From the IMG/VR virus record IMGVR_UViG_3300017922_000005, positions 1 through 44,457 of that record: 44,457 nt of DNA; one strand, given 5' to 3'. The notes under the pieces are model-generated. The model was not told the origin of the DNA, did no database searches, and worked only from the letters and a program-made list of their open reading frames with translations. Each line of letters opens with the position of its first letter. Positions within the stretch are counted from its first letter, which is position 1. Positions 1-44,457 of this stretch are shown piece by piece. Source of the stretch: a virus. A program made the position numbers and the translations under genes.

Positions 1-138
1 CATTTTATGCAGCATTCGTTCTTGAACACAATGTGTATCATCACGTAGATAAACTGTATCTGTATGCCATTCAATTCCCACAACTGTCCACATCCTTTTC
101 TCAATTGTATCCCATGCTCTGAATTTAAGTTCTCTCAA
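1..138 (-). CDS. YopX-family protein, partial (runs off the left edge)
   Basis: The visible N-terminus reads LRELKFRAWDTIEKRMW, the typical opening of YopX-type phage proteins, whose molecular role is not well established. It starts at TTG (138-136), which overlaps the TGA of the upstream gene in a TTGA junction, with GGTGAT just before it. The C-terminal part lies outside the window. A second, complete YopX gene lies about 750 bases upstream in the same operon, so this is one of two diverged copies. Family assignment is by motif only. Confidence 0.8.
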   Translation of the reverse strand, partial: MRELKFRAWDTIEKRMWTVVGIEWHTDTVYLRDDTHCVQERMLHKM

Positions 139-527
139 ATCATCACCCCATAAGTTATATCAAACTCTTTTATATCAATGATTTCTATAAGTCCAGCATC
201 GTGAACACAATGTTGTTTTTCAATCTGCTCTCGAAATATTGATGCAGCCTCATGCATATTTGGGGCAACAATTGTCTTATCGAATTCTTCTGATATTACA
301 TTATACATCTTCAATTTGCGCCCTTTATGAGTAGCATCAGTATCTTTTGTTTTCTCATCTTTCTGCCTCTCAAGATATTTATCATACACATCATTACTCA
401 TACGACATACTTTCACATCCCAGTCCATCGACTAAACCATATACCCATACTCTTTTACAAGATTCTGGATAAAATTATGTATCTTGCTGTCAATTTCTTT
501 TGATTCATTTACTTTAATATTGCTCAT
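135..527 (-). CDS. Unknown protein with an in-frame TAG codon
   Basis: This gene is open from ATG 527 to TGA 135 only if the TAG at 434-432 is read as an amino acid (residue 32 of 130). The 31 codons before the TAG start with a plausible ribosome site (AGTGATTGA before the ATG) four bases behind the preceding gene. The ATG two codons after the TAG has no comparable site. The product is hydrophilic with mixed charge and no motif I recognise. The extended frame ends in a TTGA overlap with the next gene, as elsewhere in this operon. The alternative is two separate peptides of 31 and 97 residues, or a nonsense mutation. Confidence 0.7.
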
Positions 528-2568: not shown

Positions 2569-2717
2569 TTTCTTTTCTCCGGTTCTTCAAATTCAGTCTT
2601 ACATTGCCTACATCTATACTTGGGTTGTTTACGTACCCTTATGCGGAAATCGGCAGACTTACAGTTTGGGCAGGCAAGTCCGGAACTGTAAAGTTTGCCC
2701 TTTCTGAATTTTATCAT
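2565..2717 (-). CDS. Small zinc-ribbon protein
   Basis: This 50-residue gene is locked between neighbours: its ATG overlaps the TGA of the polymerase gene and its own TGA overlaps the next ATG. It carries CPNC at residues 16-19 and CRQC at 36-39, a CxxC-x16-CxxC zinc ribbon, in a basic protein (RIRVRKQPKYRC between the pairs). Such ribbons bind nucleic acid or act as transcription-factor-like adaptors. The link to the polymerase by overlap is suggestive only. Confidence 0.8.
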   Translation of the reverse strand: MIKFRKGKLYSSGLACPNCKSADFRIRVRKQPKYRCRQCKTEFEEPEKRK

Positions 2718-5062
2718 GTTAAGAAATCCGCCAATGATCGCTGTCCTATCAATCCATTAATATCCCAGCCCATGGAGGAATACAAAAATTCCAGCTTTTT
2801 CATTGTAGCATCTCTCATTGCTTTATAATCTACAACTACTCCATCGGGTAGTGATGTATCCTCATCCACGGCAATGTAATTGGCTGGTGGATATTTGGAA
2901 GCTACCTTCTTGACCTTCACATAAAAGGGTTTGGTGCCTTCCTTGAAGTTCGTATTCAGGTTCTCATTTGACCACATGGCTGCCACTGCACGGTAGTAAG
3001 ATTCCGGATAGGCGTGCAAGGGCTTCTTGATTTCTGCCGGAACTCCAATCTCGGTTAATGGATATTGTCCTTTTTCCACTTTTTTTAATTCAGCAGAATA
3101 CTTCATATCCAATTCCCTCTTGGGCTTATAATTCAGAAGGTCAAGGATTAGTTCCTTTTGCAGGTTTCGTGCCAGAGTGGAAGAATCTGAACGAATAGCA
3201 TCAAAACCCTTCACTTCTAGCGCAGAAGGATCATCCTCATCAAAGGTGGTACCGTCAATCCACCAAAGTTTGATGGCGTATCTGGTCTTGCCTGAAAAAA
3301 TGCCGTTGCGTGCAACCTTTTCAAAGTCAATGTTCATCTTTGCATGTTCATATGGTATGTTGTATTGGCGTAGATGGAGAGGGAATTTACTATTCAGGTG
3401 TTCCTTGACTTCATTGCCGACTTCAATCAACTTCTTGAGACTATTGTATTTGGTTACGAAACCCACCGAATCCGTGTGCCCGAATACCCACTGATATCCA
3501 AGTTTGTTGACCTCATGTCCGCAGAAGTCAATTACACCACGGGTAATGTGTGTTACAGCATTGGCAATCCTCACATCATAAAACTTACAATGCTTATCGG
3601 CTACATCGCCATATACCGTGTTAATTGCTACCTTGTAGGCTTCACGGATTGCATTGGCAACCTTCCATTCTTTGGATTTATACTTTTCTTTATCTCGTTT
3701 CTTACCCCACTCGTCTTTCTTTTGAAAGATATCTTCAAGGAACGTCACGTATGCTCCCTTACGCACACGGTGTGGCATGAAGCACGTACCCCCGATATCA
3801 ATACAATCGTCAAGGGACACGCCTTCTGGGAGATTGGAGCCATCTTCATTTACCAATGTTTCTACAGACATATTACCGGACATCATGGAGAAGGGATAGG
3901 CAGAGGTCAAATCCTCAAATATAACATTCTCATGAAGTCCTACAACTGGTGGTCGGGGTTCGGCACCTTTTACCTTGCCATGCTCGGAATCGTGGGATGG
4001 GTATATGAACTGTGGCATTGCCCTACTCATGGCGGTTTCTACCATCTTGCCCGAATACAGGGTGTCTTCCAGATTGCAGCCAAAAATCCTATGGAAGGTA
4101 ACATGAGAACTCAAGATTGAAAGTTCCCTGTCAAGGAGCATCATCTTGTCCACATCATGATAATTATACTCCAATACTTCATCCGGATTCCTTGCCCATG
4201 CACGAGCAAGATATGCTGCATTCAATCCATCATATTTGGCAAGTCCAAGTTCCCTTTCCAGAATATCATTCAGGGAATTTTTAATATATTTGCGCCTCTT
4301 CAGTCTCAAATATCCAGCTCTGTAATCAAAGAGTGCTACTCCTTTAATCTTGGCTTTGGGATTCCCATTAAAGTCCACGTTCACACTTACCGACTTCATT
4401 GGACTTATTGGGCTAATGTCAATATTCAAAGTGTTACACCGTCTGATTATGTAAACAATATCATAACCTAACAGGTTAAACCCTGCAATGACATCCGGAC
4501 CGAATTTAGCAATATACTTTATCCAAGCATTCAACATCTCGGTCTCTGTGGGATACCAGTATTCAATCCTGCCTGCAGTATTGAACTTCTGGGCTTCCTT
4601 GATTGATGAGTGAAAGCAGAACTGCACGACCTTGCTGGAATGATTGAACTGGAAACCGATTATAATTATAGGCTCCGGTGCATCCATCATATACTTATTC
4701 GTGATGGGGGTATTATTGGAAGCTACCTCAATATCCAGTCCACAGACCAGAGGATCAGCTTTTTCTTCAAATCCTTCCTCTACTCTATCAATCCAGTATC
4801 GTGTGGTAAAAGGAGTCTTGGCTTCGTAGTGTCTATCACCACGTAATTTGCCAATGTCCTGTGCCATCTTACATTCGACTTTCTTGACTTTCACGCCATC
4901 CTTGGCAGTATAAACATCTCCCTCTTTGCATCCTTGCGGAGTAGGAACATCTACCGGAAGATAGAAGTAGGGGTGGAAATCCCACACTTCGTAGGACTTG
5001 CCTCCCCACGGAAATACTACAATTCCCGATCTATCGTTCTTGACAACCTGCTCGATCTGCAT
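2714..5062 (-). CDS. Family B DNA polymerase with 3'-5' exonuclease domain
   Basis: The 782-residue product carries the complete motif set. The exonuclease motifs are Exo I GLDIE (Asp110, Glu112), Exo II FNLLGYD (Asp201) and Exo III YNYHD (Tyr299, Asp303). The polymerase motifs are A DLTSAYP (Asp384), B KVAINTVYG (Lys477 to Gly485) and C GHTDS (Asp531). It is the likely replicative polymerase. Motif C has His where most family members have the first Asp of DTD, while the catalytic second Asp is kept. It lies in an operon with the RecA-like ATPase and putative ssDNA-binding protein. GTGAGG precedes the ATG. Confidence 0.97.
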   Translation of the reverse strand: MQIEQVVKNDRSGIVVFPWGGKSYEVWDFHPYFYLPVDVPTPQGCKEGDVYTAKDGVKVKKVECKMAQDIGKLRGDRHYEAKTPFTTRYWIDRVEEGFEEKADPLVCGLDIEVASNNTPITNKYMMDAPEPIIIIGFQFNHSSKVVQFCFHSSIKEAQKFNTAGRIEYWYPTETEMLNAWIKYIAKFGPDVIAGFNLLGYDIVYIIRRCNTLNIDISPISPMKSVSVNVDFNGNPKAKIKGVALFDYRAGYLRLKRRKYIKNSLNDILERELGLAKYDGLNAAYLARAWARNPDEVLEYNYHDVDKMMLLDRELSILSSHVTFHRIFGCNLEDTLYSGKMVETAMSRAMPQFIYPSHDSEHGKVKGAEPRPPVVGLHENVIFEDLTSAYPFSMMSGNMSVETLVNEDGSNLPEGVSLDDCIDIGGTCFMPHRVRKGAYVTFLEDIFQKKDEWGKKRDKEKYKSKEWKVANAIREAYKVAINTVYGDVADKHCKFYDVRIANAVTHITRGVIDFCGHEVNKLGYQWVFGHTDSVGFVTKYNSLKKLIEVGNEVKEHLNSKFPLHLRQYNIPYEHAKMNIDFEKVARNGIFSGKTRYAIKLWWIDGTTFDEDDPSALEVKGFDAIRSDSSTLARNLQKELILDLLNYKPKRELDMKYSAELKKVEKGQYPLTEIGVPAEIKKPLHAYPESYYRAVAAMWSNENLNTNFKEGTKPFYVKVKKVASKYPPANYIAVDEDTSLPDGVVVDYKAMRDATMKKLEFLYSSMGWDINGLIGQRSLADFLT

Positions 5063-9085: not shown

Positions 9086-10135
9086 TCATTCTATCTTTAC
9101 CTTGATATTCTTTTTAATGTTTTCGTCCTCCACTTCGACGAATTTATCTTGCAACTGTTCCTTCTCCTGAATGTCCAGCATATCCGATGCTATGTGTTCC
9201 AGTGTGTCCTTTACTCCATGGCTTGCATCATGAGAGGACACGGAAGTTATGGCGTTTATAATACCCCACAGGTTGTCGGCATGAGCCCCGTGCATCCTGT
9301 CGTTTATGCGCTTCTTGACTTCCGTGGCTATTTTGCCAGACATCTTTTTCTCCAAGACGTAGTGATCTATCAAGTTGTTGGCTTCCTCTTTGGTAACAAG
9401 GATACTCTTTGCCCTGTCAATGCTTTCCAGTACGTTCCAAGCATTGTCTAATATTTCGCCTACCTTGATAGTAAACTCTTCCAAGAGTTCCTCTTTATTA
9501 CCCAGATGAGTCTCTGTGATGGATTCTTCTGTCTTGTAGGATACCATACCATTTTCGCATTCCAGTCTCTCAAAATAAAGGGAAACTGTTATGCTTCGTG
9601 TACCATATTCATTGTTCTTGATCTGCAATCCGGTAGAGATTATATCCCCGACCTCACCATCCGAAACATTGTCTTTGATAACGTATCGGGTAACATCATA
9701 ACCTCTGGGATAGGTTGTCTTGTACCTCATGGAATCTACTTGAGTTACACCTTCCTGAATCATTATCTCTTCGGCATAGTGTTCCAGTTCTTCCATGTCG
9801 ATAGGTACATAACTACTACCAACAACAGACATGATATCTCCGGTATCCTTCAATCTCCTGAAGATAAGAGGATTATTGTCCTTCCTCATGTGCAGCATCT
9901 CAAGGAATTTGGCATTAGTATTTGGGCAAGCACCATCCTCTTCCATTTCCTTGTCAAAGATTGACTTATACGCTCCGGTCATTCTAAAAAGTTTGGTCAC
10001 TGCAAATCCTTTGAGTTCAAGTGGTCCGTGTACAGTATCCAAAAGCATGTGGTTGTCTCCCACATACTTGGCATCTTCAATCTCGCTTCCCTTAATTTCT
10101 ATATTTTCCCATTTAGTCTCCGGTGGATAATCCAT
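9086..10135 (-). CDS. DUF932-family phage/plasmid-like protein
   Basis: The 349-residue product shows the family's features: VVGSSYVPIDMEEL near residue 110, a central block ending ITVSLYFERLECENGMV near 185-205, then ETHLGN, and a C-terminal WGIINAITSVSSHDAS near 295. DUF932 proteins are frequent in phages, plasmids and archaeal viruses and are tied to DNA metabolism, but their activity is not established. The ATG has GGAGTAAGAGC upstream. Confidence 0.85.
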   Translation of the reverse strand: MDYPPETKWENIEIKGSEIEDAKYVGDNHMLLDTVHGPLELKGFAVTKLFRMTGAYKSIFDKEMEEDGACPNTNAKFLEMLHMRKDNNPLIFRRLKDTGDIMSVVGSSYVPIDMEELEHYAEEIMIQEGVTQVDSMRYKTTYPRGYDVTRYVIKDNVSDGEVGDIISTGLQIKNNEYGTRSITVSLYFERLECENGMVSYKTEESITETHLGNKEELLEEFTIKVGEILDNAWNVLESIDRAKSILVTKEEANNLIDHYVLEKKMSGKIATEVKKRINDRMHGAHADNLWGIINAITSVSSHDASHGVKDTLEHIASDMLDIQEKEQLQDKFVEVEDENIKKNIKVKIE

Positions 10136-12184: not shown

Positions 12185-12243
12185 TATTCATACCTCGTGT
12201 CTTTGGTCTGCCTGTCCCAATGATCCTTGTCCTTATAAATCAT
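12184..12243 (-). CDS. Possible 19-residue peptide gene
   Basis: This short frame begins ATGATTTATAAGG and ends in TAATG, overlapping the next gene by one base and the preceding frame by 11. The peptide is hydrophilic (KDKDHWDRQTKD). The tight junctions favour translation, but there is no clear ribosome site, and the sequence TTTATAAGG could instead be a TATA-like element. Low confidence. Confidence 0.3.
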   Translation of the reverse strand: MIYKDKDHWDRQTKDTRYE

Positions 12244-12535
12244 TGCGCTTTGCCACTAGTTTATAATAACTGTTGTTCCTATCAATGTATTCCTTATTAA
12301 ATGAAATACACCAACCCCTTTCTAAAAAAAGAAAGAAAAAATAAATTAGCATCTTTTTTATATTTTTTCTTTTCTTTTTTGTATTTGGTACTATTGCTAT
12401 TATCTCATTATCTCCTGTTTCTACAATACTGAAACCTTTCTTTTGTAGTTTATCTTTCAAGTCCTCTGTAGTTCTGGTTCCCAAGGACAAGGGTTTCTGG
12501 CACCCTCGTCGTTCGGGCTGAAGGTTTGGGATCAA
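12233..12535 (-). CDS. Unknown protein with TTG start
   Basis: The 100-residue frame starts at TTG 12535, with GGAGG seven bases upstream, and overlaps the TGA of the TAG-containing gene before it (TTGA). The centre (LKDKLQKKGFSIVETGDN) reads as real protein. After a Lys-rich stretch it passes through an A/T-homopolymer tract (IYFFFLFL), which on this strand is T-rich and could also be a terminator, so the C-terminal third is doubtful. A frameshift within the tract is possible. No family is recognised. Confidence 0.45.
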   Translation of the reverse strand: MIPNLQPERRGCQKPLSLGTRTTEDLKDKLQKKGFSIVETGDNEIIAIVPNTKKKRKNIKKMLIYFFFLFLERGWCISFNKEYIDRNNSYYKLVAKRNDL

Positions 12536-12780
12536 TCATCTGCCTCCACGATGTCCACCATAAACATTGTTATTCTACGTGCCTCTTCCAATTTGTCGGT
12601 TTCCCTCTTGAGTTCATTGACCTTCTAACCGATTGCCTTGTCTAGTTCCACGATAAATTCACGGGTGCTGTTTGTCCTCCGTGCTGTCTGTTCAATCAGC
12701 CAAGGCATGTGCTGGGATTGTGCTGTGGCTTCTCCAAGTACGGTATAGACCGATTCAAGATTAATGTTTGCTTTTGCCAT
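12532..12780 (-). CDS. Small helical protein with an in-frame TAG codon
   Basis: The start is ATG 12780, with AGGTGATATC upstream, beginning MAKANINLES. The frame reaches TAG at 12627-12625 after 51 residues and continues in the same frame for 30 more codons (KVNELKRETDKLEEARR...) to TGA. The continuation forms a charged helix that extends the helix before the TAG (FIVELDKAIG). Its end is joined to the next gene by a TTGA overlap, and that gene's GGAGG lies in the continuation. Read with TAG as sense, the protein has 82 residues. The role is unknown. Confidence 0.7.
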
Positions 12781-12784
12781 GATA

Positions 12785-14296
12785 TCACCTGTTGTTGAAT
12801 GCTTCAAGTACCTCGTTCTTTGATCTTATAAACAAATTGTTCCAGTCGTTCCATTGTCTCCCCATCAAGCGCAAGACAAGTCCTTCCCTGCTGGCAAAGA
12901 GTTCATTGTGTTCGGAATACCAGCAGTGAGTATATTCATGGGCAGCCAGCATAAAAATTTCGATTCCGGTGGCTATTTTGCCCTTTGTACTCTCCACGGC
13001 ATTTGGATTGATAAGAAAAACTCTCTTGCTATCCTTCCTGAAGACTTTAGCGTTGCATTCTTTGTCAAAAGTAAATCCAACACCGATTTCTACGTTCTGG
13101 TTGAATTCTTCTTCTATCTTGAGGATTATGTTTGTCCAGTAGTGTAGGATGGTTTGAAGCTTCTTGGAATCTATCTTCATCGGATAGTTCTTGGTGTCTT
13201 CCCTTCTTTCCACCATGAACTCGTATCCCATTGGTCCAATTTCATGCTTGCTTCCTTCCAGCATGTCACTAACCAGCTGTCCAAGTTCCGGAAAGGTGTC
13301 GGATACTTGTTCTTCCACGGCTTTATAGTTAGTTATTCCGCTTGTGGTGTTCTGTGCTGTGATAGCTTCAATAAAGTCCTTCTTATGGTCTGTTACCTCC
13401 GGATGATGAAACTCATTCAGTTTGTCCATCACATTCAGTCCAGCAAAGGTGTCAATTACCATCTGCGGTTTCTTCTCCGTGGCTGATCTGGGATCAACGA
13501 TCATCTCGTTTATCTTTTCATCCAGTTTAGACCTGAATGGATAGACAAGATTATCCCTGTTGGCAGCAAGGAAATTGACGGACTCGCCCTTGAGTTCCAC
13601 ATAAACCGTGGACTCCAAGTTCGGCATCATTCTCCAAAACATAGGAATGCCACGGAGTCTCACGACCATTTTGCTACTCTCAAAGTCCTTGTCCACTATG
13701 AAATCCGCAAGTTCACTGCTCTTCAGAGTACCTTTGACCTTCTCGCATTTGACCTCTTCTCCATCAAGGCAAATTGTTGCCTCTGTGGAAAGGAAAGATA
13801 AAAAGTGTTCAACTTTGTATTTCCAGAAGCCAGCATCATAAATAGAGCCTTCTTCGTACAAATTGATTGATATCTCGGTGCCAATTTTGCATTCAGTCTC
13901 AATGCACCTAATTGGTTCCTTGCCAATCATTTCGTTGTTTATCTCATACAACGTCGTTCCGTCTTGAGAAGATTTAATCGACCATTGACTCCATGCAAAG
14001 AAAAGGATTTCCTTTGCCTTGCCGAATCCGCCAACGGAACCTTCCTTCTTCTGGGAACCACCAAGCACAAGTAACTTGTCACGAATAATGTTTGCGTTCA
14101 TTCCGCAGCCATCATCCACGACAGTTATCGTGTTGGCTTCCTTATCAATATCAATGCTTACCTAACTGGCTCCAGCATCCAGACTGTTCTGAATCGCTTC
14201 ACGAATCCATACCGTTGGTAGATCGTTTGAATAATCTGCTCTGGCATTTTTGCGGAAATAATCAGCACCTATAACAATATCTGCTACTTCTTCCAT
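12785..14296 (-). CDS. GHKL (Hsp90/MutL-type) ATPase fused to an HExxH domain, with an in-frame TAG
   Basis: The gene starts at ATG 14296 behind AAAGGAGGTTTATA, a near-perfect ribosome site, and encodes 503 residues if TAG 14164-14162 (residue 45) is sense. The N-box is REAIQNSLDAGAS with Glu33 and Asn37. Directly after the TAG come VSIDID and the DDGCGM box (about 61-66), then GGFGKA (about 89-94). The C-terminal part holds AAHEYTHCW, an HExxH motif at about 453-457, with SEHNE about 8 residues later, as in zinc metallopeptidases. Without readthrough neither fragment has a whole ATP site. Partner and target are unknown. Confidence 0.85.
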
Positions 14297-14308
14297 TATA
14301 AACCTCCT

Positions 14309-14434
14309 TTAAATCCCAAAAGAAGACATCTCTTTTGGTCTGCTTGTCGCATCCTTATGCTGTGTCCAGTCCATGCTCTCGATGTCAAGGGAGTCGCTCT
14401 CTTTGGCTCCCTTGGCTATCTCCGGCTGGCTGTC
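14309..14434 (-). other. Open frame after a TAA, possible small gene or extension
   Basis: Directly after the TAA of the HTH gene the same frame stays open for 41 codons and ends just before the GHKL ribosome site. The composition is protein-like (EIAKGAKESDSLDIES, then MDWTQHKDATSRPKE). An internal ATG at 14374 could give a 21-residue peptide but has only a weak GAGAGC upstream. It could be a peptide gene, decay of a longer HTH gene, or chance. Confidence 0.35.
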
Positions 14435-15112
14435 TTACTCTTCTGGTGGATAGTCGTATTCGAACCTATCCATGGATTCCGCAACTGCTTCGTCAAATTT
14501 ATCGTTGTTGGCATTCTTGCGGAGTTTGGGGAAGGCTACAGTAATTATCGCTGTTTTGACTTTGCCAAAGTCTTCTCCAAATTTGGACTCTCCCATGAAG
14601 ACTGGTGCGATTCCCTTGATAAAGATGTCTTCAAGGTAGTTGGTCACCTGTTCCAGTTTGTCTTCTGGAAATTCTGCTTCCTCAAGGTATTCCCTGACCT
14701 CCGTGTCAAGGTCTGCGAAAGAATCCTTGTCCTCGGATTCTTCCGGTTCTTCTGTCTTGGGTTCCCTTTTCAGTTCTTTGGTTTCCTTCTCTGCCTTAAC
14801 TGCCGTGGTCTGTGTTTCCACCCTTGCCACCGTAGGCTCACTGAAAGGAGTTGGGAACACATCGTGGAGTTTGACTGGCTCTCCATTTTCATCAAGATAA
14901 TGCTTCTCCTCTGATCTGATATGTCTGCGAATGTTCTGTGTGGAGCACCCGAAATGCTTGGCAATGAGTCTGTAACCCCATGCCTTGGGTTCTTCCATCT
15001 TGTTCTCTTTTCTGTCGTAATAGTTGAGTTCATGCCTGCCAACATAAAGGTCAACTACTTCCTTGTGGTTGATACCGATATGTCCAGATTTTGTGGTCTG
15101 CTCGTTTGTCAT
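14435..15112 (-). CDS. HTH protein with acidic C-terminal part
   Basis: The 225-residue product has an N-terminal helix-turn-helix (GYRLIAKHFGCSTQNIRRHI, about residues 46-65), typical of terminase-small-subunit or regulator HTHs. A Lys/Glu-rich linker (about 105-140) and a compact C-terminal domain (about 145-215) follow. A DNA-binding regulator is likely. GGAGGAACG precedes the ATG. After the TAA the frame stays open for another 41 codons up to the GHKL ribosome site, described separately. Confidence 0.75.
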   Translation of the reverse strand: MTNEQTTKSGHIGINHKEVVDLYVGRHELNYYDRKENKMEEPKAWGYRLIAKHFGCSTQNIRRHIRSEEKHYLDENGEPVKLHDVFPTPFSEPTVARVETQTTAVKAEKETKELKREPKTEEPEESEDKDSFADLDTEVREYLEEAEFPEDKLEQVTNYLEDIFIKGIAPVFMGESKFGEDFGKVKTAIITVAFPKLRKNANNDKFDEAVAESMDRFEYDYPPEE

Positions 15113-17279: not shown

Positions 17280-17618
17280 TCATTGCCCAACCTGTGACTC
17301 TAATTCAGCAATGCGCTGCTTGAGCAATTCCTCCTTGGATGGCTCGTGCATTGCGTCATCAATGACATCCTTGAGCTGCATTGCTACCAATTCACCCACG
17401 AATTCCTCTGGGGTTGGTTGCAATTGCGCTGCTGACTTGACTGACTTGGATCGCTTGAGGTCACGTGGCGCTGGTTCCTTGATTCCCAACCTCACCAACC
17501 AGCGTCGTGCATTCTCTCTGCTGCATTCCAATTCCTTGGCAACTCCAGTCACGGATTGCCTCACGTCCCATGCGTCACGAACCGATTGCTCGTCAATTCC
17601 TTTGTGGTTGCTGCTCAT
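17280..17618 (-). CDS. HTH DNA-binding protein, first gene of the leftward operon
   Basis: The 112-residue product has an HTH near residues 20-45 (SVTGVAKELECSRENARRWL), a basic segment (PRDLKRSKSVKSAAQ), and a C-terminal coiled-coil-like helix (EELLKQRIAELESQ). GTGATCAAGT precedes the ATG. As the first gene beside the repeat-rich control region it is a good candidate for an autoregulator or origin-binding protein, which is inference from position. Confidence 0.72.
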   Translation of the reverse strand: MSSNHKGIDEQSVRDAWDVRQSVTGVAKELECSRENARRWLVRLGIKEPAPRDLKRSKSVKSAAQLQPTPEEFVGELVAMQLKDVIDDAMHEPSKEELLKQRIAELESQVGQ

Positions 17619-17639
17619 ACTTGATCACGTCCTGCCATG

Positions 17640-17850
17640 GATGGGAGCGGGTTGCGCTGATCCGGAACCGAACCGGAACCGAACCAGCATGCCGCCCCAT
17701 CCCTCGGCAATCAACCCGATGAGGTGGGCGCTCGTGCTGTGATCGCTATCGGGCGCCATCGGCAATGGTTTGCTGGTGCTATGCGATGGCGGCAGAGGTC
17801 GGTGGCGGGGTTGAATCGGCATCGGAATCCGATGTCCGGTGGGGTTTGCT
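17640..17850. other. GC-rich palindromic segment of the control region
   Basis: This stretch is far richer in G and C than its surroundings and has no credible gene. CGCCATCG (17754-17761) pairs with CGATGGCG (17784-17791), with an inner GCAA/TTGC stem. CATCGG (17820-17825) pairs with CCGATG (17829-17834) over three bases. It lies upstream of the first leftward gene, so it could be a structured leader RNA, an operator cluster or part of an origin. Confidence 0.5.
17662..17683. repeat. Tandem 11-base direct repeat
   Basis: CCGGAACCGAA occurs twice in direct succession. The CCGGAA core recurs in the AT-rich half of the control region, so the whole region may share one binding motif. Confidence 0.7.
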
Positions 17851-17891
17851 AGAGGAAATAAGAATCTGATTGCCGATATTCGTCGTTTGTG

Positions 17892-18086
17892 AAACCGGAA
17901 AAATAATTCTAATTGAGTACAAAAAAGGGGAACCACTTGTTTGATTTTACAAATGTAGTCAGCAATTTAATTCCGACATAATAAGAAACCGGAATCTGAT
18001 TGCTGTTTGTATTTTCGTAAACCAAATAAAAGAATTAGTTAACTAGTAAACCGGAAATTAAAAAATAATTAACTAGTAAACCAGAA
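17892..18086. repeat. Iteron-like AAACCGGAA repeats
   Basis: AAACCGGAA occurs at 17892, 17986 and 18048, with the variant AAACCAGAA at 18078 and AAACCGATT at 18121. Copies at 18048 and 18078 are embedded in a 14-base repeat, TTAACTAGTAAACC, at 18039-18052 and 18069-18082, exactly 30 bases apart. GAATCTGATTGC also occurs twice (near 17864 and 17993). This density fits an origin or regulator-binding array in AT-rich DNA. Confidence 0.6.
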
Positions 18087-18160
18087 AAAGGTTGCCGATT
18101 TACGAGCAGTCAAATATCGGAAACCGATTGCCGAAAATATGAAAATGAGTTGGTAATACA

Positions 18161-18250
18161 TATGAAATATTATATAGATTAGGTACTTCGTAATAATGAG
18201 TTTATAGGGCGTATGAAATATTCTATAAATTAGGTACTTAGTGGTAATTA
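18161..18250. repeat. Direct repeat of about 38 bases containing TATA-like boxes
   Basis: TATGAAATATTATATAGATT (from 18161) and TATGAAATATTCTATAAATT (from 18212) each continue with AGGTACTT. The copies are 51 bases apart. On the minus strand they contain CTATATAATA and TTTATAGAATA, which resemble archaeal TATA boxes. They may be a duplicated promoter for leftward transcription or part of the origin. No reliable gene overlaps them. Confidence 0.55.
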
Positions 18251-18321
18251 TTTTGATTCTCATTCTAAGTGAGAACATACACAATACATCAAATCTTACA
18301 AAAAACAAAACCTTCTTATTT

Positions 18322-18468
18322 ATGAAGTGTCTTATTATACATAATTATCAAGGACAAGGAATTAGAGCATATTATGCTGAAAATATGAGTACACACCCAT
18401 CAATCGATTTAATCAAGTGTTATGCGTTTGATGGGGATGATCTATGTGGGTTATTTACGGTTAAATAG
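18322..18468 (+). CDS. Unknown small protein, apparent TAG stop
   Basis: The 48-residue product (MKCLIIHNYQGQGIRAYY...) looks protein-like and has three cysteines. No clear ribosome site precedes the ATG, which follows an AT-rich stretch, so it could be leaderless. The frame meets TAG at 18466-18468, then a second TAG three codons later, and TAA after 11 codons. If real and terminated here, it is a counter-example to TAG being sense throughout. It overlaps the end of a minus-strand frame. Confidence 0.45.
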   Translation: MKCLIIHNYQGQGIRAYYAENMSTHPSIDLIKCYAFDGDDLCGLFTVK

Positions 18469-18741
18469 ATAGGATAGCATAATTCCTTCAACAACAATTA
18501 AACATGCAAATGCTACACCTATTAATGGATTATTTGGATCATATTTCAATTCAGAAAATTGAAATAAAAATAATGCTTGTATTATTTTATATATCATGTA
18601 AAATACTAAATCTCATGAAATTCCATGAAATACAATATAATATGACCCCATATAATCCCACATGGCACCAATAAATATTGCACCAATAAATACTACACGA
18701 TATTTTATTAGGTACCCAAGGGTATTTCCTATTACCAGCAT
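18451..18741 (-). pseudogene. Membrane protein gene interrupted by TGA
   Basis: The frame from ATG 18741 to TAA 18451 has 96 codons with one TGA at 18615-18613 (codon 43). On both sides the translation is strongly hydrophobic: VVFIGAIFIGAMWDYMG before, LVFYMIYKIIQALFLF and IGVAFACLIVVEGIML after. This predicts three membrane helices. A Trp codon changed to TGA (GIS-Trp-DLVF) would explain it. Most other genes here stop at TGA, so readthrough is unlikely and a decayed gene is the simpler reading. Confidence 0.5.
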
Positions 18742-18800
18742 ATGTCCAGAAAGATTAACTCAAAGTACGTACGTAAAAATAATTTATAAGGACATGGAAT

Positions 18801-22378: not shown

Positions 22379-23908
22379 ATGGAAATGAATGATGCCACCG
22401 AAATACTCCTGAAGACCAGTGAAGGTAGAAGAGCCCTTGCCAAAAATTCTATTTCTTTTTTCTTGAGTTATTATCTGGGATTGGATATTGATAAGCATCA
22501 TGAAGAATGGATATCCAGAATATACATTAAGAGATTGCATTACGAAGCCCCCCGTGACCATGGAAAATCTACAATCTTTTCTTTTGGATATCCATTGTGG
22601 TTACTTTATCATGTACCAAATGTAAGAACACTGGTCGTATCCCGTACAGGAGGTTCTTCCGGTGTTTCTACAAAGGTTAGGGAAGCCATAATTGAGGAGA
22701 TGAAGACCAATAATCGCCTTCTAGAAGATTATGGTAAGATAATTACCAAAGAGAAGGGAGGAAATATATGGGTTAAACGTACCAAACGAGGTATAAAAGA
22801 CCCCTCACTAGAGTCTGTGGGTGTGGGTGGTTCAATTACTGGTGGTCACTACGATTTTATTCTGGTGGATGACTTGATTGATCCCAGCAACTCCCGAACC
22901 CAGACCATGAGGGATTACGTAGCTGACTGGTTTAATGGTACCCTGATGGAACTTCTGGAACCGGATTCCCAGATCATTGTGGTTGGTACCCGTAAACACT
23001 GGGATGATTTATATAAATATATACTGGACAACAAATTGTGGAACAGTTATATAGATAAAGCCATAATCAGATATCCAGATCATTATGAAATTATTGCGCC
23101 CGATGAAGAAACATATGAAGATATGACATTTGAGGAAGCCGACAGGCGTGGCGGAGAACTCAAGATCATTAATGATGTCAAGGTATATGTTGAAGGAGAC
23201 TATGAAGTCCTCTGGAAAGAAAAATGGGATATATTCCAGTTATTGTATAATAAATACGATATTGGCTCCATTCTTTTTAACAGGGAAAAACAAAATGATC
23301 CATCCGGCATGCAAGGTAAGATTCTGAATGTAGAATGGTTACAATTTTATGAAAAGAAAGACTTGCCCAATGATTTAATTGTTTATCAGGGAGTGGACTT
23401 GGCAATCTCTGAAAAGGAAACTTCCGATTATATGTCAATCTGTACGGTAGGATACTCCCCATCAAAACAGATCGTCTATGTTCTGGAGTTCTGGAGAGGA
23501 CATCGCACATTCCCTGAACAAATCGGGATGATTGAACGATTTGGTAATAAATGGGACCCCATACGGATAACTATCGAATCTAACGCATACCAGAATGCAA
23601 TGATACAGTACCACCACGCTGTCAATATGTTACCCGTTGTGGGTTCCCCAACTACAAAGGATAAAACAACAAGGATGCTTGCCATTTCTCCACAGATCGA
23701 GAATGGTAAAATTCTATTTAACAGAGATATTCCTTATTATGAAAATTTTGAAGAGGAATTTGTACAATTCCCATATGGAGCGCATGATGATACTTTGGAC
23801 AGTCTGGAAATTTGTGTAAGACCTATTTTTCAGGTTGGTCAGATACATATTGGTGATTGGTCAACTGGTAAGGATGTTGCAGGAGAAAAAGGATGGTTTT
23901 CAATATAA
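22379..23908 (+). CDS. Terminase large subunit (ATPase and nuclease)
   Basis: About 509 residues. Walker A is APRDHGKST (about 57-65), Walker B is FILVDDLID (about 160-168) and the coupling motif is VVGTRKHWDD (about 201-210). The C-terminal nuclease shows QGVDLA (Asp340), ITIESN (Glu400) and HDDTLDSLE (Asp470/471). It cuts and pumps DNA into the procapsid. I place the start at ATG 22379, with GAGG eight bases upstream; an in-frame GTG at 22367 overlaps the preceding stop and is the alternative. Confidence 0.95.
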   Translation: MEMNDATEILLKTSEGRRALAKNSISFFLSYYLGLDIDKHHEEWISRIYIKRLHYEAPRDHGKSTIFSFGYPLWLLYHVPNVRTLVVSRTGGSSGVSTKVREAIIEEMKTNNRLLEDYGKIITKEKGGNIWVKRTKRGIKDPSLESVGVGGSITGGHYDFILVDDLIDPSNSRTQTMRDYVADWFNGTLMELLEPDSQIIVVGTRKHWDDLYKYILDNKLWNSYIDKAIIRYPDHYEIIAPDEETYEDMTFEEADRRGGELKIINDVKVYVEGDYEVLWKEKWDIFQLLYNKYDIGSILFNREKQNDPSGMQGKILNVEWLQFYEKKDLPNDLIVYQGVDLAISEKETSDYMSICTVGYSPSKQIVYVLEFWRGHRTFPEQIGMIERFGNKWDPIRITIESNAYQNAMIQYHHAVNMLPVVGSPTTKDKTTRMLAISPQIENGKILFNRDIPYYENFEEEFVQFPYGAHDDTLDSLEICVRPIFQVGQIHIGDWSTGKDVAGEKGWFSI

Positions 23909-26157
23909 ATGGTTTAGTAGAGAGATTACGGGATTTCAATCCCAATCGTGTCAAGCACTTGGAAAATCAATTGGCTAAGACAAGTAACGAATTGGACAAG
24001 ACCATGCAAATGGTAGAAAAGCCACAGCATAATGTATATAGCAGGGAGATCGGTATCCAGCACATGAATCTGCCTTTGCGGATTCGTGATATATATAATG
24101 TGGCTGCCTTCAATTCAGTATTACGTACAGCTATTCATAATATAAAGAGTGAAATTTTCAGACAACCCCCAGTGTGGAAGGCAAGGTTTGTCAGAAAGTG
24201 TAGTGAATGCGGACACGAACACATGAAAAGTGTTGATAAGTGTGAGGCGTGTGGAAGTACATCCCTGCAAGAACCGGATATCAATCAGACCGCCCGATTT
24301 GAGGAATTTGTACAGAATGCAAACAAGAACGGACAGACTTTGAAGGAAGTCCTAAAAGAATGTGAACGTGATCTTGAAATTATCGACGATGCCTATGTCG
24401 TGCTTGTCAAGAGTTATGCTGTTGGTAAAGATGGCATCATGTATGAAAGAGTCAACGAGATCATCCGAGGCAACCCAGAAAGGATACGTATCGTGTCCAA
24501 CGACAGGGGCGAGATCGGTGGTAAATGGTGGGTGTGCCCCTTACACCGTGAACCCAAATTTGAAACTGAAAAAGACCCCATGAAGCGTAAACATGGTAAA
24601 GTTTATGAAAATCCTGGGCATTGTGAAATCTGTGGAAGAAAACTTTACGAAGTACATCATGTATCAATAATGGGTACCGATGCTTCCGCAGCAGCCGAAC
24701 AATACTTTATTGAAGGCGAGATTATTCATGGTTCCAAATACAGTCCATCCCTGCTTTATGGTTACAGTCCGGTAGTTTCCCTCTGGAAGGAAGCTTCCAC
24801 CCTGCTGAACATGGCAAATTACATTAACGAGTATTATAAATTCCAGCGTACTCCCAAAGGTGCCATCTTCATCAATACCATGAATCCGGAATCCATGTAC
24901 AAGAAATGGGATGAAATCAATGAAAGAATGAGAGTTGATCCCCACTACATACCCATGATTGCTACGCAGGGAGATTCCAATTCCAAGAACAGGGCGGATT
25001 TTGTAAAATTCTCCGATACCCTGCAGGAAATGGGATATTCAGAAGGCAAGGATGAACTTCGACAGAGGATTTCTGCATTCTACGGTGTTACCAATATACT
25101 TATGAATGATGCTACGTCATCGGGAGGCAGTAATAATGAAGGACTTCAGATCAAAGTGACTGATCGTGCGGTAGAAACTGGACAAAATGTCTGGAACGAG
25201 AAATTCTTCCCGAAACTCATGAAAGCATTCTCCATAACGGACTGGAATCTTGTACTTCAACCCAACGAAGAAACTGACCAGATGAAACGTATTCAACTGG
25301 AAACTTCCAAAGCCCAGCACGCACAACTCATGCAACAGATGGGATTCAAGGTAACACTGGATGCGCAGGGTGAATTTGAATATAGTGGAGAAGCCATGGA
25401 CTTATCTGCACAACAGGAAGAAATGATGGGAGAAGACGAAATGGGTGAAGGTGATCCTGAATATGATGATGGGATGGTGAATCCGGATGAAGAACCGGAT
25501 GACCTTTTCATGGATGCCGATGATGAAGCCGAAGGTGGACAATATAGAGAACTCTTCTTCGATGCCGAGGAGGATGGTAGAAAAAATAAGAGTGACTCCT
25601 CACCTATAACTATTGATGGGGAGTTAACAAAGACAGTACCATGGAGAAGGAGTGCCGCCAACGGTTATAGAAAGATCGAGATTACCAGACGAGATGGAGA
25701 AAGACAGGCAGTCTGGGTAAAGATGCATTCTGATAGGGAACTTGGTCAAAAACGTGATGGAGAATCCATGGATACCCATGAACTGTTTGGTGAAGACAGA
25801 GATAGATGGAATATCCAGCGCAGACCATCTGAAGAAATTAAGAGGGATAACTACTCTACCAGATGGGAGCAGGAAGAAGGCGTCAAGAATAAGGAGACTC
25901 CACTACCACCGGAGAAAGCTAAATTGAGGACAACATTCCAAGAAGCTCATAATGATGTGGTCGTCAATATAATAGGTAGGGATGCCGACCAGATGAAAGA
26001 AACCGCGGAAGATGATCCTTTGCAGGGACACATGGCAGCCTTCAATCCGGACACCAAAGAGTTGAATATTGATAGTAACATTACAACCAGCCAGATGAAG
26101 CAGGTTTTCGAGAAGTATCATGATATGTTGAGGAAGCAAGATGAAGAATCTAAATGA
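23893..26157 (+). CDS. Portal protein with two zinc-binding insertions and a C-terminal extension
   Basis: 754 residues. The core (about 55-540) is portal-like, with a stem region around SPVVSLWKEASTLLNMANYI. Two Cys clusters interrupt it: KCSECG...KCEACG (103-120) and WVCPLH...HCEICG (215-247). After an acidic linker (about 520-575) comes an extra domain of about 180 residues without known homology. The protein forms the vertex ring for DNA entry and tail attachment. AGGAG lies before the ATG, and the gene overlaps the terminase gene by 16 bases. Confidence 0.9.
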   Translation: MVFNINGLVERLRDFNPNRVKHLENQLAKTSNELDKTMQMVEKPQHNVYSREIGIQHMNLPLRIRDIYNVAAFNSVLRTAIHNIKSEIFRQPPVWKARFVRKCSECGHEHMKSVDKCEACGSTSLQEPDINQTARFEEFVQNANKNGQTLKEVLKECERDLEIIDDAYVVLVKSYAVGKDGIMYERVNEIIRGNPERIRIVSNDRGEIGGKWWVCPLHREPKFETEKDPMKRKHGKVYENPGHCEICGRKLYEVHHVSIMGTDASAAAEQYFIEGEIIHGSKYSPSLLYGYSPVVSLWKEASTLLNMANYINEYYKFQRTPKGAIFINTMNPESMYKKWDEINERMRVDPHYIPMIATQGDSNSKNRADFVKFSDTLQEMGYSEGKDELRQRISAFYGVTNILMNDATSSGGSNNEGLQIKVTDRAVETGQNVWNEKFFPKLMKAFSITDWNLVLQPNEETDQMKRIQLETSKAQHAQLMQQMGFKVTLDAQGEFEYSGEAMDLSAQQEEMMGEDEMGEGDPEYDDGMVNPDEEPDDLFMDADDEAEGGQYRELFFDAEEDGRKNKSDSSPITIDGELTKTVPWRRSAANGYRKIEITRRDGERQAVWVKMHSDRELGQKRDGESMDTHELFGEDRDRWNIQRRPSEEIKRDNYSTRWEQEEGVKNKETPLPPEKAKLRTTFQEAHNDVVVNIIGRDADQMKETAEDDPLQGHMAAFNPDTKELNIDSNITTSQMKQVFEKYHDMLRKQDEESK

Positions 26158-31788: not shown

Positions 31789-32934
31789 ATGACGTACAGA
31801 AACTCAATACAGACAATTGGAGACCTTGAATCCCTCTACTATGGAGACCTCTTCTCCAAGCAGTACATGCAGAAAAGCGATGCGCCAATGCTTACTTCCA
31901 CCTCTGGTATTTACAACCAGATTTATGGTGCAAAGGTTTGGGTAAACCTGAATCTTGAAGCCAATGCATTTGGTATGTTGAACAAGACTCCTTGGAAACA
32001 GTCCGGTTGGAGGCTTATCACAACCCGTGCTCTCGGAACTTCTGGAAGCGGTGGAGTTGCTGAAAATGCTGCACTTCCAGATACCACAAAACCCACCTTC
32101 AAAGAGGTCGCTACCAAACCCAAGACCGTTGCACACACCTTCGACAGTTCCGAAGTCATGCAGTACATGGGTACAGTGGACGATTCCCTTGGAGATGTTA
32201 TGGGAGTTCTGCGTGAACACATGGCAAAGGAACATGCAGAACAGATCAACAAGATGCTCCTGAAAGATGCTTCTGCTGAAGCCGCAGCAGCCAGTGGAGA
32301 CCGTGCTGCAGCCGACATGTACAATATCGAATCCCTTGACCGTATAGTGTCCAGTGATGCAGAAGAAGACGCATTTGGTGGAACCTATAATGGTTGGTTC
32401 GATGTATTCAGCCTTGATAGGGATTCCACAACTGACTACGATGCACAGGTCAGCCACAACTCTGGTACAGACCGTTCCTTGTCCTTGTCCCTCATTGATA
32501 GTATGTTCACCAACCTGTGGACTGCTGGTGGAAATCCAAAGGTCATTATGACCGGATATGACTCCCTCATGGCAACCCAGCAACTCTTGCAGGCACAGCA
32601 GAGATTCATGGACACCAAGAGAGTAACACCTTCCGTAAACGGTATTAAAGGTGTAGATGGTGTGGATGCAGGATTCGTTGTTGCAACATACAATGGTGTT
32701 CCATTCATACCATCCAAAGACATGTGTCAGGATACCCTTTCAAGGATGTTCTTCCTCGATACCGACTATCTGGAAATGAGAATTGCAAAACCAACCCAGT
32801 ATTTCGAGTCCGGTATCCTTTCTGGAAACCCCTTCGGAATTAACCGTCTTGGTCAGGAAGGACTTTACCGTACAATGGGTGAAGCAACCTGCCAGTGGTT
32901 TGGCGTACAGGGTAAGATCAGGGATTTGCAGTAA
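31789..32934 (+). CDS. Major capsid protein (HK97-fold type)
   Basis: 381 residues, following protease-scaffold as usual. Features include an N-terminal arm (IQTIGDLESLYYGDLFSK), a Gly/Ser/Ala-rich region (RALGTSGSGGVAENAAL), a long spine-helix candidate (MGVLREHMAKEHAEQINKML), and KVIMTGYDSLMATQQLL near the middle. The codon usage is the most even and GC-rich of the late genes, as expected for a highly expressed protein. GGAGGAGAATAAAC precedes the ATG. Confidence 0.9.
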   Translation: MTYRNSIQTIGDLESLYYGDLFSKQYMQKSDAPMLTSTSGIYNQIYGAKVWVNLNLEANAFGMLNKTPWKQSGWRLITTRALGTSGSGGVAENAALPDTTKPTFKEVATKPKTVAHTFDSSEVMQYMGTVDDSLGDVMGVLREHMAKEHAEQINKMLLKDASAEAAAASGDRAAADMYNIESLDRIVSSDAEEDAFGGTYNGWFDVFSLDRDSTTDYDAQVSHNSGTDRSLSLSLIDSMFTNLWTAGGNPKVIMTGYDSLMATQQLLQAQQRFMDTKRVTPSVNGIKGVDGVDAGFVVATYNGVPFIPSKDMCQDTLSRMFFLDTDYLEMRIAKPTQYFESGILSGNPFGINRLGQEGLYRTMGEATCQWFGVQGKIRDLQ

Positions 32935-44309: not shown

Positions 44310-44457
44310 ATGATGGTTTTATATACGGTTGGGTCAAAGGCTAACGTTGGTTATGTACAGGTACTACATGAACCGGGTGACAGTTGTGACTATTACGGTA
44401 CACTTATATCTGCATCAAATAAATATTGTCTATTTGTAAATACAAAAAATCCTTCCA
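44310..44457 (+). CDS. Unknown protein, partial (runs off the right edge)
   Basis: The frame opens at ATG 44310 or ATG 44313, behind GAGGTTAA, and stays open to the edge. It reads VLYTVGSKANVGYVQVLHE and is likely another tail or fibre protein from its place. Confidence 0.6.
   Translation, partial: MMVLYTVGSKANVGYVQVLHEPGDSCDYYGTLISASNKYCLFVNTKNPS

Follow-up and report, generated by a model that had tools for sequence, protein, structure and literature searches.

An in-frame TAG codon, probably read as pyrrolysine, in the GHKL ATPase gene of a putative archaeal tailed virus

Pyrrolysine is known chiefly from methylamine methyltransferases and from scattered host genes. Archaea that use it, such as Candidatus Methanomethylophilus alvus, ISO4-H5 and Methanosarcina, carry pyl genes in their cellular genomes, have TAG strongly reduced as a terminator and show in-frame TAG codons in cas1, cas3, adenylate kinase and insertion sequences. 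TAG stops constitute 4-5% in Methanosarcina compared with 20-30% in pyrrolysine-decoding bacteria, and in Candidatus M. alvus, with 1.6% TAG stops, 16 extra pyrrolysine proteins are predicted; Cas1 is one of several proteins predicted to contain the residue (PMC4153887). In ISO4-H5 there are in-frame amber codons in 46 genes, ten of which are insertion sequences (PMC5011839). The locus described here resembles these cases in its in-frame TAG codons and in the reduction of TAG as a terminator, but it belongs to a virus without a detected tRNA, and here no confident gene ends in TAG at all.

The window, that is the whole stretch of 44,457 nucleotides that was analysed, is the IMG/VR virus record IMGVR_UViG_3300017922_000005. 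An earlier note on this DNA had described a single minus-strand frame that starts at ATG 14296, passes one TAG and ends with TGA at 12785, with the TAG between the N-box of a GHKL ATPase and the DDGCGM box. Translation confirmed this frame (Table 1): read from 14296 to 12785, the minus strand gives MEEVADIVIGADYFRKNARADYSNDLPTVWIREAIQNSLDAGAS, then the TAG, then VSIDIDKEANTITVVDDGCGM and onwards. The TAG is the only internal stop in the 1512 bases, and the 458 codons after it stay open. Its position relative to the boxes was also as claimed, with the N-box residues E33, N37, D40, A41 and G42 upstream and G1, G2 and G3 all downstream, G1 (DDGCGM) at residues 61-66 and G3 (GT) at residues 139-140. 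All four boxes of the ATP site, including the N-box (ExxxNSLDAG) and G2 (GGFGK), are present in the order of the GHKL ATPases, and by these boxes the protein belongs to this group; the complete set requires that the TAG is read through. When the TAG is taken as a residue, Pfam HATPase_c_3 matches residues 31-117, spanning the TAG, with an E-value of 9.5e-10 and above the cut-off, and HATPase_c matches with an E-value of 9.5e-6, barely above the cut-off. A six-frame search of the record with HATPase_c recovered this match too and flagged "1 TAG" within it.

Table 1. Positions in the window of the features discussed, with strand and remarks
Feature	Position	Strand	Remarks
Third candidate in-frame TAG	432..434	-	Same codon in sister strain
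130-residue gene, including in-frame TAG	135..527	-	Weakest of the three cases
Family B DNA polymerase	2714..5062	-	Best matches are haloarchaeal tailed viruses
Following gene	12233..12535	-	TTG start overlapping TGA of the 82-residue gene; GGAGG 7 bases ahead
Gene after the ATPase gene	12532..12780	-	82 residues including TAG; ATG 12780, TGA 12532
Second in-frame TAG	12625..12627	-	Good case; same codon in sister strain
GHKL ATPase gene	12785..14296	-	503 residues including TAG; profile match and selection
HEYTH, HExxH metallopeptidase-like motif	12926..12940	-	Near the C-terminus of the GHKL protein; direct reading
Strong RNA hairpin	14055..14141	-	Starts some 23 bases past the TAG of the GHKL gene
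In-frame TAG, codon 45	14162..14164	-	Between N-box and DDGCG box
Ribosome-binding sequence AAAGGAGGT	14302..14310	-	Ahead of ATG 14296
Portal protein	23893..26157	+	Matches are haloarchaeal viruses and a Methanomassiliicoccales virus
Major capsid protein	31789..32934	+	Phage-collection matches solely archaeal viruses

If the TAG is an amino acid, its column in an alignment with other GHKL proteins would be a variable sense position, as the earlier note had pointed out. This was found to be so among 16 remote homologues, which are proteins from bacterial genomes and mostly MutL. The column is variable and polar, with Arg in five sequences, Asn in four, His and Lys in two each and Ser, Asp and Thr in one each; the aligned residue in E. 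coli MutL is Arg. Two AlphaFold models, whose confidence is too low (mean pLDDT of 33 and of 45) to judge a Bergerat fold or to support a fold search, tentatively place codon 45 in a turn joining the N-box helix to the next strand. The placement is common to both models and lies in their best-scored part.

The ATP-site boxes and their spacing, within residues 22-140, are shared with MutL, Hsp90, the phage protein rIIA and restriction enzymes of the HgiDII/BbrUII type, but the protein scores below every specific NCBIfam cut-off (MutL, Hsp90, restriction enzymes). The MutL equivalog TIGR00585 gave 34.2 bits, where the cut-off is 180, over residues 31-68 only, which does not identify a MutL, and the family models recognised neither a MutL nor a nuclease C-terminus. 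The protein is predicted to be an active ATPase. The HExxH motif near its end gave only Pfam WLM with an E-value of 0.12 and was confirmed by no family model; a GHKL domain joined to a metallopeptidase-like end would be an unusual fusion if real. We guess that the ATPase is of the conformational kind, carries an effector region at its C-terminus and possibly acts on host DNA or defences.

Two other IMG/VR contigs, IMGVR_UViG_3300006807_000001 and IMGVR_UViG_3300006634_000006, have an open frame of the same length, 1512 bases, with TAG at the same codon. They are identical where they overlap and were therefore counted as one further strain. This sister strain is 98.9% identical to the window and about 1% divergent at the GHKL gene. 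The two strains differ at 15 synonymous and 5 nonsynonymous positions over the whole frame (dN/dS 0.086), and the synonymous divergence is about 5% (15/309 sites). After the TAG there are 12 synonymous and 3 nonsynonymous differences (dN/dS 0.064, neutral binomial P 1.2e-6). The 3 and 2 differences before the TAG are too few for a firm test, and the 20 codons from the TAG to ATG 14101, with zero differences, are uninformative either way. The frame is under purifying selection, and the TAG lies inside one conserved coding frame. That the TAG has been kept across a dS of about 0.05 between close relatives is modest evidence for a sense reading.

Since the second strain shares the TAG and selection on the frame is purifying, a sequencing or assembly error, or a gene in decay, is very unlikely. 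The assembly is metagenomic and a single base change turns AAG (Lys) or CAG into TAG, but the deficit of TAG stops extends across the genome. Searches with degenerate DNA patterns, in which each TAG was replaced by NNN, gave no contig with a different codon at that position, and neither these nor protein searches gave a homologue in a related virus with a sense codon at the TAG. The protein scan for the 130-residue gene likewise gave no homologue with a sense codon.

Two products might instead be made from the frame, a 44-residue peptide and then, by re-initiation past the TAG, a protein of 438-444 residues. In-frame starts for the latter exist at GTG 14119 and ATG 14101, but neither has a Shine-Dalgarno sequence ahead of it and ATG 14101 scores 0. 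Both products would lack the Asn of the N-box, the Mg-ATP ligand, and the product from the ATG also the Asp of G1. Homologues that start after the TAG, which the earlier note had named as evidence against a sense reading of the TAG, were not found in the protein searches. Re-initiation is highly improbable.

Probable in-frame TAG codons are also present in two other genes of the window. The 82-residue gene has 30 codons after its TAG with a coding score of 12.9 bits, and its TGA shares four bases (TTGA) with the start of the following gene; this 4-base overlap joins 10 gene pairs of the window, more than any other type of junction. The differences between the strains in this gene are too few for a selection test. 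In the 130-residue gene the TAG is probably read through, but an ATG follows soon after it, so that a later start is possible.

A simple codon-usage gene finder called 65 genes in the window with TGA or TAA as the stop and 3 apparent TAG ends, and all three of these frames run on in a coding-like manner past the TAG. Among confident genes TAG terminators are absent from two gene sets of the window (0/58 and 0/54) and from the sister genome (0/68). Elsewhere in the window TAG constitutes 11% and 26% of the stop triplets in the shifted frames, 20% on the antisense strand and 16% between genes, and the deficit of TAG terminators against these out-of-frame, antisense and intergenic shares has P values from 1e-3 to 3e-8. 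Past 52 real stops, the next in-frame stop was TAG 11 times. As a sense codon TAG occurs only 3 times among 12,916. TAG is thus rare both as terminator and as sense codon, as would be expected of a genome adapted to TAG decoding. The claim that this TAG stands for an amino acid is supported by the alignment column, the second strain and the absence of TAG terminators, and there is little doubt that TAG is a sense codon in this virus. TAGs at 1359-1485, 10214, 10346, 11443, 11464 and 32966 of the window precede plausible starts and were left uncounted.

TAG stops are used by every fetched capsid relative with at least 10 called genes. The nearest of them, with 51% capsid identity, has TAG at the end of 5 of its 22 genes, and a Methanofastidiosa virus of like GC content at the end of 5 of 51. 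The difference in TAG stops has a Fisher P of 1.6e-4 against six pooled relatives, but of only 0.013-0.024 against the Methanofastidiosa virus alone. Because the nearest capsid relative stops at TAG, the loss of TAG stops is confined to this lineage, and the TAG-using relatives place the change in code use within this archaeal virus group. BK063666.1 and IMGVR_UViG_3300035698_005782 are capsid relatives that both use TAG stops. In-frame TAGs in the capsid relatives were considered as signs of a code in which TAG is sense and rejected; with many TAG terminators there, they are most simply run-ons.

The hairpin that follows the TAG of the ATPase gene has a folding energy with z -4.3 against dinucleotide shuffles and z -4.6 against synonymous recodings, none of 500 being as extreme; of 612 coding windows, only 2 fold as strongly. 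It is retained in the sister strain. The hairpin possibly aids decoding of the TAG, or it is incidental. No such hairpin was found at the other two in-frame TAGs; since it stands at one of the three only, the idea that decoding requires a PYLIS-like signal was rejected. Pyrrolysine insertion has itself been described as a competition with the release factor in which an extra mRNA motif is unnecessary (PMC9499178). Both the hairpin and this competition would suit a leaky or regulated stop that gives mostly a 44-residue peptide and some hairpin-helped read-through to the ATPase, but a switch in one gene leaves the genome-wide loss of TAG stops unexplained and the other two TAGs have no comparable hairpin. 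We consider a leaky stop decidedly unlikely.

The missing TAG stops are compatible with any sense reading, including that of a standard amino acid inserted by a viral or host suppressor tRNA, such as Gln in code 15 phages. Code 15 genomes use TAG freely. In these phages, as here, TAG is a sense codon in a virus genome, but it is abundant in them and very rare in this virus, with 3 TAGs in comparison with 422 Gln, 1008 Lys, 487 Tyr and 189 Trp codons, and the closest relatives of this virus are archaeal viruses. ARAGORN, which can miss unusual tRNAs such as tRNA-Pyl, and Rfam detected no tRNA in the window or in the 56.5 kb sister genome. Neither the frequent in-frame TAG of code 15 phages nor a viral amber suppressor tRNA was thus found, and membership among these phages was rejected. 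To our knowledge there is no archaeal reassignment of TAG besides pyrrolysine. Recoding of TAG to Gln is established in crAss-like phages (PMC9523058), but a standard amino acid at these codons of the present virus is unlikely. The small number of TAGs among the sense codons is unlike a reassignment to a common amino acid and fits pyrrolysine, which is the simplest reading of the residue and a likely one.

With pyrrolysine at the TAG, codon 45 of the viral ATPase would be decoded by the pyrrolysyl-tRNA of the infected host (pylT, charged by PylS). The result would be one protein of 503 residues with a complete ATP site, carrying the pyrrolysine side chain at a variable turn where homologues have Arg, Asn, Lys or His. 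The same decoding would take place in the downstream 82-residue protein and probably in the 130-residue protein. Since no viral tRNA was found, although ARAGORN may have missed a tRNA-Pyl, the decoding would have to come from the host. We propose that the viral genome has lost its TAG stops and uses TGA and TAA because the host terminates unreliably at TAG. Some archaea reportedly, in an account from 2025, read all TAG codons as pyrrolysine, and a virus without TAG stops fits a host of this type. An archaeal tailed virus in which TAG is sense, most likely pyrrolysine, and decoded by the host is, as a whole statement, probably correct.

Within the phage collection the capsid protein matches only tailed viruses of haloarchaea and one Methanofastidiosa virus, and the terminase is of a general tailed-phage type. 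Capsid, portal and polymerase sequences together point to an archaeal tailed virus (Caudoviricetes). The capsid protein is 28-33% identical over 95-98% of the length to those of Druskaviridae (HCTV-1, HVTV-1) and of vir519 of Methanofastidiosa, and the portal and family B polymerase are related to those of the haloviruses HCTV-1 and HVTV-1. Druskaviridae and Caudoviricetes sp. vir519 stop at TAG, unlike this virus, and a GHKL relative was not detected in their searched records. The portal is also related to that of Caudoviricetes sp. vir335, which has a Methanomassiliicoccales host and TAG at 3 of 107 stops. These few TAG stops give weak support to the link with a pyrrolysine host, as vir335 has 58% GC and a high GC content favours TGA. 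No credible in-frame TAG was found in vir335; a candidate second case there was rejected, the extension being an Arg-rich shadow of an overlapping coding sequence.

Compared with the window, the sister genome is a circular permutation that carries roughly 11 kb of additional sequence. It contains a gene for an anaerobic ribonucleotide reductase, and an anaerobic host fits for this reason. The natural host would be an anaerobic archaeon, probably a methane-making one; we infer a methanogen, or an archaeon that decodes pyrrolysine.

More tentatively, and with somewhat less than even chances, this may be a virus lineage living in the archaeal pyrrolysine code, with no TAG stops, at least two pyrrolysine proteins of which one is a GHKL ATPase, and an infection tied to the host's supply of Pyl-tRNA. 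If true, infection would depend on charged pyrrolysyl-tRNA, that is on growth of the methylamine type, and the pyrrolysine code would bind not only the host but also its parasites. Pyrrolysine use would then hinder the infection of hosts in which TAG terminates, and the absence of TAG terminators would allow viruses to be assigned to pyrrolysine-decoding hosts from sequence alone. Ordinary annotation splits TAG-bearing genes in two. No report of a pyrrolysine-bearing viral protein was found in the literature searched, which lay mostly outside the subscription journals, and a viral enzyme in the pyrrolysine code would be new to that literature.

Some other parts of the genome also stand out. 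The stretch 17600-17860 of the window has 60-66% GC and very strong folding (to -52 kcal/mol per 100 bases), and it directly adjoins a gene-poor stretch with 26-30% GC at 17900-18800, between two divergent gene arrays. The region 17600-18800 is possibly an origin or control region. A short near-identical repeat is found in the AT-rich part at 18161-18188 and 18212-18239, and the two copies cross-match each other's places in the sister genome. The window has 9 copies of TTTATATA, a sequence similar to an archaeal TATA box, where 2.6 are expected (for example at 18586-18593 and 44318-44325); as a TATA-box signal this excess is only a hint, several sites being intragenic. A protein of unknown function at 9086-10135 resembles the DUF932 / LGT_TIGR03299 proteins of phages and plasmids. 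The sister genome has at 13454-14503, in a part absent from the window, a gene for a PurA/PurZ-like adenylosuccinate synthetase beside one for a dTMP kinase. The PurA/PurZ-like protein matches NF038379 with an E-value of 5.8e-67 yet below the cut-off, and its phage relatives are about 31% identical; judging from these similarities, adenine in the viral DNA might be modified.
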